Position numbers and translations under genes: made by a program
DNA from: a virus
Strand: one strand, 5' to 3'
Virus record (IMG/VR): IMGVR_UViG_3300018481_000022
Coordinates: 1 to 64,000 of that record
Length of the DNA: 64,000 nucleotides
Notes under the pieces: model-generated
Told to the model about the DNA's origin: nothing
Database searches by the model: none
Seen by the model: the letters and a program-made list of their open reading frames with translations, nothing else
In this document: positions 44,837 through 61,810 of the stretch, in pieces
How the letters are laid out: every line of letters starts with the position of its first letter
Position numbering within the stretch: the first letter of the stretch is position 1

Positions 44837-45003
44837 CCAAGAGGTCGATACGTCGATTTCGGGGCGTTTTTGGGGGGTCGCTCGGGTCCAAAGTCGAAAA
44901 ATCGTCCCGTATGTGGGGCGAATGGACGGCATGCATGGACGACATCGCATGGACAAGGCCAAAGATTCGGGCTGTCCATGCGCGGAATTCTGCTAAACCA
45001 AGA

Positions 45004-45043
45004 CAAAAGAAGGCCCTCGCGTCGCCGGAAACGACCGAGGGCC
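45004..45043 (-). terminator. Leftward rho-independent terminator between attP and int
   Basis: Stem GGCCCTCG (45012-45019) pairs with CGAGGGCC (45036-45043). On the minus strand the stem is followed by TTCTTTTGTCTT. It would stop leftward transcripts that run antisense through int before they reach attP and the late operon. Confidence 0.65.
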
Positions 45044-45072
45044 AGACCCACCGAGAAAAGAGAGAAATCCAG

Positions 45073-46377
45073 GTGAGCGACAAGAGAGTAAACCAAGGCG
45101 GCGGCACAGCCAAAGGCACAGCCGAATGGCAACCCAATCGAACCGGGGGCGGAAAGTACGTCGCCAAGATCACGACCCTTGCCGGAAAGCGTGTTCGCGT
45201 GCCCATGCTGGACGACAACGGTCGACCGCTCTTTACCGACAAGGAAAAAGACCACACGCACGCGATGGATTTCGCGCACGCGCTGAACGATGAACTTCGG
45301 TCTGAAGCGACAGCCCGCAAAAATGCTGACCGCAAGGCCATCACGGTCGTTCAGTTCGGCACACAATGGACATCAGGCGCGCTCTTCCGAGAACATGGCG
45401 ACGTGAACGGGCTCTCGATCAAAAAGACGGCGAAAGACGATCGCAATCGCCTGCGAAAGTACGTTTACCCCTACATCGGAAACGTGGCGATCGTCGACGT
45501 CGACGATCAGACGATCGAAAAAACCTTCGCGAAGGCCCATCAGGCATTTTTCGAAAGGCACAAGCGGCCCATGAGCCAAGCGACGAAGCGTCATCTATAC
45601 ATGGTGACGCACCGACTCTTCGAGCTCGCAATCATTCCGGGGCGCCTGATCACGGTCAACCCTGTTTCAAAACACGTCTTGCCCAAGCCGGGGAAAGAGA
45701 AGCTTTACAGCTTTCTTTACCCCGACGAACTCGTCGACTTGCTCGGGTGCACCGACATTCCCATCGCGCGGCGCGTCTACTACGCGATCGCGAGCTACAC
45801 GGGCCTGCGCAAGGGGTCACTGCGCGCGTTCACTTGGGGCTTGGTCGACTTCAAGAACTTGACGATAACGAACCTCGTCAACAAGCCCGACTTGCCAGTG
45901 ATGTTTGCGCAGACCGACCCGCTGATCCCGGGCCTGTCGTCGCTGATCGAGTTGCTTCGCCGCTATCGCGAGCTTCGTGGATGGCCCGACGATGACCAAG
46001 TGATCGTGTCGATCCGCGAGCTCGGCTGCAAGAAAGACGCCGAAGCCGCAACGTTGCGCATGGATCTCGATTGCGCGGGCATCAAGCGCAAGAATCTCTT
46101 CATCAAGAGCACTCGGGTCGAGCCGCTTCGCTTTCATGACCTGCGCGCCACGTTCATCACGTGGGCGCGCCGCCTTGGCAAGGGCGACGGCTGGATCAGC
46201 GACCGCACGGGCCACACGACGAAGAAGCTCATGGATCGCTACGACCGCGGCGCACGATCGCTTCTTGATCTGAAATACATTCCCTTCCCCGACATCACGA
46301 ACGCGATCCCTGAGCTCGCCGACATGAGCAAGGTCGCGCGACTACCGCCGCCGCGCACGAAGAAGCGCAAGAACTAG
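45073..46377 (+). CDS. int: Tyrosine site-specific integrase
   Basis: 434 residues from the GTG at 45073 (purine-rich GAGAGAAA site about 10 nt upstream); a longer frame from 44911 runs through the terminator hairpin and is not preferred. Catalytic residues are Arg246 in TGLRKG, His355-x-x-Arg358 in FHDLRAT, His381 in GHTT and the nucleophile Tyr390 in DRYDRG. An N-terminal SAM-like core-binding region spans ~90-185. The gene lies beside the tRNA-Ser-like attP core, and the sequence type resembles integrases of Myxococcota. It integrates and, with an excisionase, excises the phage. Its 3' end overlaps the convergent next gene by 4 nt. Confidence 0.93.
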   Translation: MSDKRVNQGGGTAKGTAEWQPNRTGGGKYVAKITTLAGKRVRVPMLDDNGRPLFTDKEKDHTHAMDFAHALNDELRSEATARKNADRKAITVVQFGTQWTSGALFREHGDVNGLSIKKTAKDDRNRLRKYVYPYIGNVAIVDVDDQTIEKTFAKAHQAFFERHKRPMSQATKRHLYMVTHRLFELAIIPGRLITVNPVSKHVLPKPGKEKLYSFLYPDELVDLLGCTDIPIARRVYYAIASYTGLRKGSLRAFTWGLVDFKNLTITNLVNKPDLPVMFAQTDPLIPGLSSLIELLRRYRELRGWPDDDQVIVSIRELGCKKDAEAATLRMDLDCAGIKRKNLFIKSTRVEPLRFHDLRATFITWARRLGKGDGWISDRTGHTTKKLMDRYDRGARSLLDLKYIPFPDITNAIPELADMSKVARLPPPRTKKRKN

Positions 46378-48631: not shown

Positions 48632-49159
48632 CTATTTCAAAAACGCCCATTCGGTCACGGGATAGCCAACCCAAGGTTCGACGTCTGTCGTGTAGGGCAA
48701 CATCAGCGGGTGCCGCGGGTGCCCGCTCTTCGAGGTGCCGAAGCACAGCGGGTCGATCGAGTTCGCTTCAATGATGCCCGCCAAGCCGCGCAGGGCCCGC
48801 TTGCGGGGGTCATCGGGCGCCTGCATGACCGATGCACCCCATGCGAGAACGACGCTGTCAGCGGCGCTCAGGCGCTCACGAAGGGCCATTGAATTAGTCA
48901 GCCATCTGCCTACGCCTTGACGAAGTTCGATCGGGTCGGTCGCGCGCCTCGAAAACAGGTTGACGACATACATGCGCGCATACCCGAGCTTAGTGGCGAA
49001 CCCGACACACTTGCGAATCGTCGGGTCGTCTTGCTCGCCGTCGGCGGTCGACGGGTTCAGCATTACGAATGTAATCGTTCCTGTGTTCTGATCTTCCTTC
49101 GACCAATCACGATACAGCCAAAAGCGATTTTCGCCTTCAATGTGCGCTTGCCGGATCAT
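48632..49159 (-). CDS. DUF1643 family protein
   Basis: 175 residues from the ATG at 49159, which overlaps the TGA of the upstream gene (ATGA). The segments FVMLNPSTADGEQDDPTI near 30, VVNLFSRRATDP near 65 and the end GHPRHPLMLPY are the DUF1643 signature. This family is widespread in bacteria and phages and its biochemical role is unknown. It is part of the leftward accessory operon. Confidence 0.85.
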   Translation of the reverse strand: MIRQAHIEGENRFWLYRDWSKEDQNTGTITFVMLNPSTADGEQDDPTIRKCVGFATKLGYARMYVVNLFSRRATDPIELRQGVGRWLTNSMALRERLSAADSVVLAWGASVMQAPDDPRKRALRGLAGIIEANSIDPLCFGTSKSGHPRHPLMLPYTTDVEPWVGYPVTEWAFLK

Positions 49160-49485
49160 GAATGCGACCGAAACCAGAAGCGAAGCAACGCGAACCACGC
49201 GAACACGACCCGAAGCCGGTAGCGCAAGCGAAGCGAAAGCTTCATGTGCCAAGGAAGCGCCCGATACATGGCGCGCGCTTGGTCGGTCACGAGCTTCTTC
49301 GTCAGCAAGACGACCGCGCCCGAGCGCATGAGCCGCGTCTGTAGGAACGCGAAGCGCTTCGCCTCGCTCGGCCTGAGCTGTCGCTCGGTCGAAATCTTGG
49401 CGAGTCGCGAGAACTCTTGAACCTTCATCCGATTCAGCACCGTCACGCGCGCTTCGACGATCGCGAACCTTGGCCCGTTACCCAT
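49156..49485 (-). CDS. Unknown protein with hydrophobic basic C-terminus, 109 aa
   Basis: The N-terminal 60 residues are helical and basic (VTVLNRMKVQEFSRLAKIST). The C-terminal ~30 are aromatic and hydrophobic (VVFAWFALLRFWF) between arginines, likely a membrane-associated helix. It overlaps the four-knuckle gene upstream by 8 nt and DUF1643 downstream. No family is recognised. Confidence 0.5.
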   Translation of the reverse strand: MGNGPRFAIVEARVTVLNRMKVQEFSRLAKISTERQLRPSEAKRFAFLQTRLMRSGAVVLLTKKLVTDQARAMYRALPWHMKLSLRLRYRLRVVFAWFALLRFWFRSHS

Positions 49486-56901: not shown

Positions 56902-57306
56902 TCAGCCCCCGCCCTTGATTACCGTGAACCTTTCACGCCGAAGCTTCTCGTTCGCCTTCTCGCCAGCTGAACGCAACATGTCACGCTGTACTTCGCCGGG
57001 CGCGTCGTTGATCCACAGCCCGACCGCGTTCAGCGCTGGCGAGGTGACACAGAAGACCGCGGCCCATGGCACGAAGCAATAGATCCAGCCATAGGGCCCA
57101 AACGAAAGCGTGCCGCTGATGGCCTCGTGATCGATCTTCATGTCGCTGATCGACTTGGGCATGTCGTGCCCCCATTCGAAGACGAGATTGACCGTCGTCC
57201 GAAGGTACTTCGGCACGACGACGTCGTCGCGAGTCGCGTCGAAATGCACCCGCACAAGCCCGTGCGGAATCCACATGATCACAGCGTCGGCTTTTGGCGA
57301 ACTCAC
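56902..57306 (-). CDS. SspB-like ClpXP adaptor
   Basis: 134 residues from the GTG at 57306, directly after the shared leader. GLVRVHFDA at 16-24, VVVP at 29-32, TLSFG at 66-70 and VPWAAVF at 79-85 match the SspB fold of stringent starvation protein B in Myxococcota and Alphaproteobacteria. SspB delivers substrates to the ClpXP protease through a C-terminal XB tail. Here the C-terminal end (RERFTVIKGGG) has a hydrophobic/basic stretch that could serve this. A phage copy could redirect host proteolysis; this is inferred. Confidence 0.72.
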   Translation of the reverse strand: MSSPKADAVIMWIPHGLVRVHFDATRDDVVVPKYLRTTVNLVFEWGHDMPKSISDMKIDHEAISGTLSFGPYGWIYCFVPWAAVFCVTSPALNAVGLWINDAPGEVQRDMLRSAGEKANEKLRRERFTVIKGGG

Positions 57307-57346: not shown

Positions 57347-57676
57347 TCAGGCGCCCTTCGAGCGCCGCAAGAGCTCGCCGTATTCCTGCTCTGAAAACGC
57401 GTCAGGCGCCAGCGCCAGCGCCACGACGACGAGCACCCGCGTTCGAGCCGGCCCGGGCGGAAGCACCCCGAGCACAGACGAAATGTGCGCCATTGCCTGA
57501 AGTTCAAGGGGCATGTCTTCGGCGTCGGGCACAACAACCGGCATGAACGCTTCAGTCATCACGAGCGCCCTTCGCATCGTCTCGACCGCATGGCTGAACG
57601 AGAGCATGCAGGGGGCGTCGAGCAAACGCCGATCGTAGGTCGCGACGACGTTCAACGCGAGCTCGCGCAACGTCAT
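57347..57676 (-). CDS. Unknown helical protein, 109 aa
   Basis: The ATG at 57676 overlaps the stop of the Acb2-like gene (ATGA). Begins MTLRELALNVVATYDRRLLD, has a long hydrophobic C-terminal helix (TRVLVVVALALAPDAF) and no cysteine cluster. A longer frame to 58015 lies within the Acb2-like gene and is rejected. Coupling to the Acb2-like gene makes it a candidate partner in defence evasion; unproven. Confidence 0.5.
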   Translation of the reverse strand: MTLRELALNVVATYDRRLLDAPCMLSFSHAVETMRRALVMTEAFMPVVVPDAEDMPLELQAMAHISSVLGVLPPGPARTRVLVVVALALAPDAFSEQEYGELLRRSKGA

Positions 57677-57984
57677 TCGGGGCCCTCGCTCGCGCCCTGC
57701 GCGGTCGCATACTTCGCCGTCTGCGCTTCGCTCTCGCACGCGATCGCGGCGTTCGCGGTCATGACCGCTTCGCGCACCTTGCGGATCGCGGCGCTCTGAT
57801 CTGGCCCGGGCGGCGTCAGCTCGCGAATCACACGAGCAAGTGTATGCCCTGCGCGACGCAAAAACACGTAGCGCATGTGCTGACCGGGACGTGGCGGGTG
57901 ATACGTGAACCACTGTTCGAATTGCTCGTCGGCGATCGCGCACGCGTCGGTCGCGCTCGGTGTCGGTTCGTCGGTCGTCTTCAT
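57673..57984 (-). CDS. Acb2-like cyclic-nucleotide sponge (anti-CBASS/anti-Thoeris candidate)
   Basis: 103 residues from the ATG at 57984, with AAAGG upstream; ATGs at 58020 and 58044 are alternatives. The core FTYHPP at 26-31, a helix AGHTLARVIRELTPPG and the block AVMTANAAIA at 73-82 match the Acb2/Tad1 hairpin family, whose members (such as Acb2 of Pseudomonas phages) bind cyclic di- and tri-nucleotides and so block CBASS, with relatives acting on Thoeris signals. It heads the leftward block and is followed by a coupled unknown gene. Binding of a ligand here is inferred from family. Confidence 0.8.
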   Translation of the reverse strand: MKTTDEPTPSATDACAIADEQFEQWFTYHPPRPGQHMRYVFLRRAGHTLARVIRELTPPGPDQSAAIRKVREAVMTANAAIACESEAQTAKYATAQGASEGPE

Positions 57985-58051
57985 GTTCGGCGGCGCCTTT
58001 CGTCGATTGGTCCACTTCATGTCGCCATAGTTACCGCGGGTCATGCCGTCG

Positions 58052-58102
58052 AGCTGAACGATTCGCCGGCCGTCGATCTGGCGAACTTCGTGCCGTTCAG
58101 CT
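58052..58102. promoter_or_regulatory. Nested inverted repeat in divergent Acb2-like/58114 intergenic region
   Basis: AGCTGAACG (58052-58060) pairs with CGTTCAGCT (58094-58102), and inside it TTCGCC (58062-58067) pairs with GGCGAA (58080-58085). It lies between the divergent Acb2-like gene and the rightward gene at 58114, a position suited to an operator or an mRNA hairpin. Confidence 0.5.
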
Positions 58103-60743: not shown

Positions 60744-61076
60744 ATGCGCCAGATGACCCAATTTGACGCCGACATGCTACATCGCGAGATGCGCGAAGGC
60801 GGGCTTGACATCGTCGTGTCAGCCATCGCCAACCGACAGATCGACGACACGCTTGCGCTTCCGGGCGCGCTCGCCAGCATTCACCGCGTGCTTCGCGAAG
60901 AAGGGCTCGACGTACTCGTCGACGGCTTCCTGAACACGTGCCTGAAGACCTACGTTCGGAACTTCGGGGGCCCGCTTCCGGGCGACCTGCGCCCTGCCTT
61001 CGAAGCCGCCTATTGTCGAGCGACCAAGCTTCGCTTCATGCCCCTTGCGACCCGGCTTCGACCCCTGACGGCCTAG
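60744..61076 (+). CDS. Paralogue array member 1, 110 aa
   Basis: First of three tandem related genes. ATG at 60744 after GACGAAAGGAAC. Residues ~17-34 (REGGLDIVVSAIANRQIDD), ~50 (LREEGLDVLVDGF) and ~75 (GGPLPGDLRPAFEAAY) define the family. The protein is mostly helical and soluble. It is preceded by a TAACTACCTGACGAA operator half-site. Function unknown. Confidence 0.7.
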   Translation: MRQMTQFDADMLHREMREGGLDIVVSAIANRQIDDTLALPGALASIHRVLREEGLDVLVDGFLNTCLKTYVRNFGGPLPGDLRPAFEAAYCRATKLRFMPLATRLRPLTA

Positions 61077-61096: not shown

Positions 61097-61471
61097 ATGT
61101 CTTCGCCGAAGGCACCGACCGAAGCCAACGAGCGACGCCGTGCCCTGTCTGAAGCCGGATTGAAGCTGATTGCGACGGTCATCGCCGATCGACAAATCGA
61201 CGACGCGTGTCTAGTCGACACGGTTCGCAACGACCTGCGCCAACTTCTCGACGACAAGGGCCCGGCTGCCCTCGTCGACCTGTACGAAAAAGCATTTCAA
61301 ATGTCATTTTCAATCACTTGCCGCGAGGCGTACGCCAACCTATTCGGGCGCCGACTTCCCTGTCACATGAAAGAGCTCGCCCGGGCGGCCTATCGCGAAG
61401 CTCTGACCGAACGCTTCACAGCTCTTGCCAACTCGAAACGATCGACACAAGACACCGCTCGAAAGGTATAA
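61097..61471 (+). CDS. Paralogue array member 2, 124 aa
   Basis: ATG at 61097 follows CGAAAGGTATAAATCT, repeated exactly before member 3. It shares the SEAGLKLIATVIADRQIDDA opening, a LLDDKGPAALVDLY middle and the YREALTERFTALA end with its neighbours. An N-terminal extension (MSSPKAPTEANERRRAL) is charged. No domain is known to me. Confidence 0.7.
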   Translation: MSSPKAPTEANERRRALSEAGLKLIATVIADRQIDDACLVDTVRNDLRQLLDDKGPAALVDLYEKAFQMSFSITCREAYANLFGRRLPCHMKELARAAYREALTERFTALANSKRSTQDTARKV

Positions 61472-61477
61472 ATCTAT

Positions 61478-61810
61478 ATGCCCCGAATCCTGATTCAGTG
61501 TGACAACGAGATGCACCGTCTACTTCGTGAAGGGGGCCTCGAACTCTTCGCGCGCGTAGTCGCCAATCGACAGATCGACGCCGCGCTAACAGCTCAGGGA
61601 AGGCTTGACGCCGCATGTCGCCGGCTTCGTGAAGAAGGCGTTCCAGCGTTGGTCGAAGAGTTCTACACCATGAGCCTGACGGCCTACGAAGACCTGTTCG
61701 GCGGTCAGCTTCCTGACGACCTTCACGAACCCTTCGAGGCCGCCTATCGACAGGCATTGACCGAACGTTTTACGGCTCTCGCCGCCCGGGAACAGAGAAG
61801 CCACAACTAG
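61478..61810 (+). CDS. Paralogue array member 3, 110 aa
   Basis: ATG at 61478 after CGAAAGGTATAAATCTAT. Contains EGGLELFARVVANRQID, REEGVPALVEEFY and GGQLPDDLHEPFEAAYRQAL, then TERFTALA, nearly the same as member 2 at the end. The set appears to have arisen by tandem duplication including the leader. A role as a host-interaction or regulatory family is possible but unsupported. Confidence 0.7.
   Translation: MPRILIQCDNEMHRLLREGGLELFARVVANRQIDAALTAQGRLDAACRRLREEGVPALVEEFYTMSLTAYEDLFGGQLPDDLHEPFEAAYRQALTERFTALAAREQRSHN

Follow-up and report, generated by a model that had tools for sequence, protein, structure and literature searches.

A probable Acb2-type nucleotide sponge encoded by an uncultivated myovirus lineage

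The acb2-like gene at positions 57673 to 58020 (minus strand) of IMG/VR record IMGVR_UViG_3300018481_000022 very probably encodes a phage Acb2-type sponge; positions are those of the whole 64,000-nucleotide stretch of DNA that was analyzed, referred to here as the window. The product belongs to the Acb2/Tad1 hairpin family, is predicted to be an all-helical hairpin without the beta domain of Tad1, and keeps the tyrosine and the basic residue at the positions used by Acb2. The gene contributes a further member of the Acb2 family, from an uncultivated lineage of myoviruses in the distant kin of which Acb2 and Tad2 are encoded close together.

Family membership and predicted fold

The minus-strand reading frame at 57673 to 57984 is open and translates to 103 amino acids (aa), and the two motifs by which an earlier note on this DNA had recognized the family are present in the translated product, FTYHPP at residues 26 to 31 and AVMTANAAIA at residues 73 to 82. 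Judging from its relatives, the gene probably starts at 58020, giving 115 aa, rather than at 57984, because the homologues in two related genomes (G001 and G003) open with comparable N-terminal extensions (MTWKPPKKRP... and M(EV)MWQPP...). The homologue in a third relative, G002, differs from these in having its start directly before the hairpin domain.

Sequence comparison supports placing the protein in the Acb2/Tad1 hairpin family. The Pfam profile for the Acb2/Tad1 hairpin domain (PF24729) aligns over its full length (profile positions 1 to 58 of 58) with residues 27 to 83, encoded at 57736 to 57906 (minus strand), and the score of 45.1 bits (E=1.2e-11) lies well above the curated cut-off of 27 bits, so the HMM search agrees with the family assignment proposed earlier. 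The profile has no matches in the control genomes (0/14). The same model is matched end to end by T4 Vs.4 (71 bits), which is the Acb2 of T4 (PMC10419184, PMC12657230), and by the protein of Pseudomonas phage p26 (66 bits), whose sequence in PDB 8h2j is named Acb2 (PMC11722364). The window protein also matches phrog_1454 at 5e-15, and the two PHROG families that it matches are both of unknown function.

Direct comparison with solved structures gives weaker results. Searched on its own with phmmer, the protein finds no Acb2 match among solved structures, a profile search of solved structures finds no significant Acb2 (the best being 'Acb2 homolog 43', 9ptq, at E=0.11), and hhalign against the T4 group gives an E value of 0.0016 with a probability of only 16%. 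We read these weak or absent matches as divergence inside a family of short helical proteins, with ligand and oligomer inferred. Like the T4 (Vs.4, PDB 7uq2) and p26 (PDB 8h2j) proteins, the window protein is small and helical, lacks a beta domain, and matches PF24729 end to end; it differs from them in a much shorter inter-helix loop and in its N- and C-terminal extensions. The FTYHPP...MTANAAIA pattern is shared, at 40 to 62% identity, with proteins of environmental phages, Mycobacterium phage ScoobyDoobyDoo, Tunturiibacter phage Tunturi_1, and Paenibacillus phages, from which the window protein and its G001 and G003 relatives differ in their extra N- and C-terminal extensions. One IMG/VR scan returned 149 stretches with related sequence, the best 80 of them being retained, and the gene is therefore not novel; tblastn identifies 93 phage records with related sequence. 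Within this abundant subfamily the protein is an ordinary member.

AlphaFold2 (AF2) models the monomer as a helical hairpin (mean pLDDT 85), as the earlier note had anticipated, with long helices at residues 36 to 56 and 61 to 82 and block means of pLDDT of 90 to 97 across residues 31 to 80. The two long antiparallel helices in a small, all-helical protomer are those expected of Acb2. No beta strands are present in the model, whereas in Tad1 the hairpin is preceded by an N-terminal beta-sheet domain (PMC12043709), and the protein is thus Acb2-like rather than Tad1-like. Acb2 and Tad1 both give their names to the Pfam hairpin model, and the comparison with Tad1 made here is with its published domain description.

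In a Foldseek search against viral structures (BFVD), 17 of the 25 best matches are named as Acb2/Tad1 hairpin domain-containing proteins, with a best E value of 4.3e-3 and none at or below 0.001 for this short helical monomer; a Foldseek search of the PDB with the AF2 model, a weak test for such a query, finds no Acb2 entry. This PDB result, and the ease with which short two-helix folds are resembled, speak for a structural or regulatory phage protein that merely resembles Acb2 in its short helical hairpin. We regard that explanation as very unlikely, as the profile match is specific and full-length, the pocket residues are conserved, the gene lies apart from the virion genes, in an accessory block, and a Tad2 gene is nearby in related phages. 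The profile match, the predicted fold, the pocket residues, and a model held in common with characterized Acb2 proteins all support the Acb2/Tad1-family identity that had been proposed.

Ligand-pocket residues and proposed function

In an alignment with the T4 and p26 Acb2 proteins, Y28 of the window protein (103-aa numbering) corresponds to T4 Y8, and R43 corresponds to T4 K23 and p26 K26, which we take to be the ligand-pocket basic residue in Acb2. The spacing is identical, with the basic residue 15 positions after the tyrosine in each protein, and among the 46 aligned sequences the Y28 column is tyrosine in 41 and the R43 column is arginine in 45. A Y8A substitution in T4 Acb2 disrupts binding (PMC12657218, PMC12657230). 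Two other T4 positions are changed, in that T68 is R68 in the window protein and F82 is without a counterpart (A82), and the ligand range may therefore differ from that of T4 Acb2.

These substitutions, together with the distance of the FTYHPP...MTANAAIA subfamily from the T4 and Pseudomonas Acb2 proteins (14 to 18% identity), could indicate a hairpin-family member whose subfamily binds another ligand, for example gcADPR as does Tad1, or a nonimmune nucleotide, and not CBASS signals. We consider this unlikely, as both the tyrosine and the basic residue are kept and the Tad1-type N-terminal beta domain is not predicted. We favor the Acb2-type sponge and infer, by analogy with solved Acb2, that the small helical hairpin would assemble as a hexamer able to bind cyclic di- and/or trinucleotides produced by host CBASS-type, or possibly Thoeris, immunity. 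Sequestering of the signal would then leave the immune effectors untriggered.

Neighboring genes and the upstream inverted repeat

Two minus-strand genes lie downstream of acb2, a 109-aa open reading frame (ORF) at 57347 to 57676 and a 134-aa ORF with sub-threshold similarity to SspB at 56902 to 57306. The start of the lineage-specific 109-aa ORF overlaps the acb2 stop by 4 nucleotides (ATGA), as it does in G001, G002, and G003, and it is fair to describe this gene as coupled to acb2. The order of acb2, the 109-aa ORF, and the SspB-like ORF is kept in all three of these relatives (terminase 86 to 89% identical), and the block runs on into genes of 90, 65, and 158 aa that are also conserved there. 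Five proteins of the block were compared with 83 acb2 loci outside the lineage and have no match at any locus. Because the block continues and has no outside matches, the synteny is most simply that of a gene block of one phage lineage and not of a portable module, and a conserved three-gene anti-defense module was set aside on these grounds.

Neither the 109-aa nor the SspB-like ORF has a family match above cut-off. A single-sequence scan of IMG/VR also finds no relatives of either, although such a scan misses real ones, as same-lineage genomes hold both. The SspB profile (PF04386) scores 13.4, 12.3, and 16.2 bits in three of the four SspB-like homologues, with no match in the fourth, against a cut-off of 27 bits; hhalign gives a colinear match of low significance with Escherichia coli SspB (E=0.026), and the AF2 model of the SspB-like ORF (pLDDT 42) is too poor for use. 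The SspB-like label given earlier is thus retained as a sub-threshold hint that does not reach the family cut-off. The accompanying proposal that the coupled genes are further anti-defense factors is not sustained, as they have no family match, occur only in this phage lineage, and sit inside a longer conserved block. We consider it very unlikely that the acb2, 109-aa, and SspB-like genes form one counter-defense unit, with Acb2 sequestering the signal while a ClpXP adaptor of SspB type removes a host immune protein. In G001 (L124:4455-5213), the 109-aa and SspB-like ORFs are one continuous frame of 252 aa, possibly because the two genes have fused or a stop codon has been lost.

An imperfect inverted repeat is present at 58052 to 58102, between divergent starts, with arms AGCTGAACG (58052 to 58060) and CGTTCAGCT (58094 to 58102) and an inner pair TTCGCC/GGCGAA. 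The earlier note had described this repeat and suggested that it may control acb2; the repeat itself exists, but the case for control is not upheld. Exact 9-nucleotide inverted repeats with spacers of 3 to 60 are common in the window (66 in all), with a comparable inner arm in 12 of those listed (about 10 distinct), and RNA folding gives a z-score of only -1.85. The repeat is missing from the upstream regions of G001, G002, and G003, and a promoter scan upstream of acb2 finds no promoter-like site.

Phage context and Tad2 in distant kin

The window belongs to a virus record of 64,857 bases that codes for a tail sheath, portal, terminase, and integrase, and related records of 78 to 108 kb suggest that it is a fragment. 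An integrase-type match lies at 44911 to 46377 (plus strand), and the phage may thus be temperate. A first scan for the host through terminase relatives found nothing, and a second returned just two MAG contigs, both distant (41% identity) and insufficient to name a host; the suggestion in the earlier note that the host group carries CBASS- or Thoeris-type defenses thus gains no support here.

Two more distant relatives, G005 and G006 (terminase 65%), also code for a PF24729 protein (72 bits), and both carry a Tad2-like gene (PF11195, 87 bits; G005:C1:40578-40784 and G006:C1:35505-35711) about 2.7 kb from acb2 and on the same strand. As Tad2 is another sponge (PMC12043709), the region in those two genomes contains two likely nucleotide-signal inhibitors, and their proximity in two distant kin supports an anti-signaling role for acb2. 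There is no Tad2 match in the window's own record, which may be incomplete. The proximity fits the stacking of nucleotide sponges already known from phages and raises no new question by itself.

Elsewhere in the window, three tandem paralogous ORFs (60744 to 61076, 61097 to 61471, and 61478 to 61810, plus strand) are 32 to 45% identical and have A(N/D)RQID and FG..LP motifs in common; Pfam and PADLOC scans of the first and third of these find no match. A DUF1643 protein (115.6 bits) is encoded at 48632 to 49252 on the minus strand.
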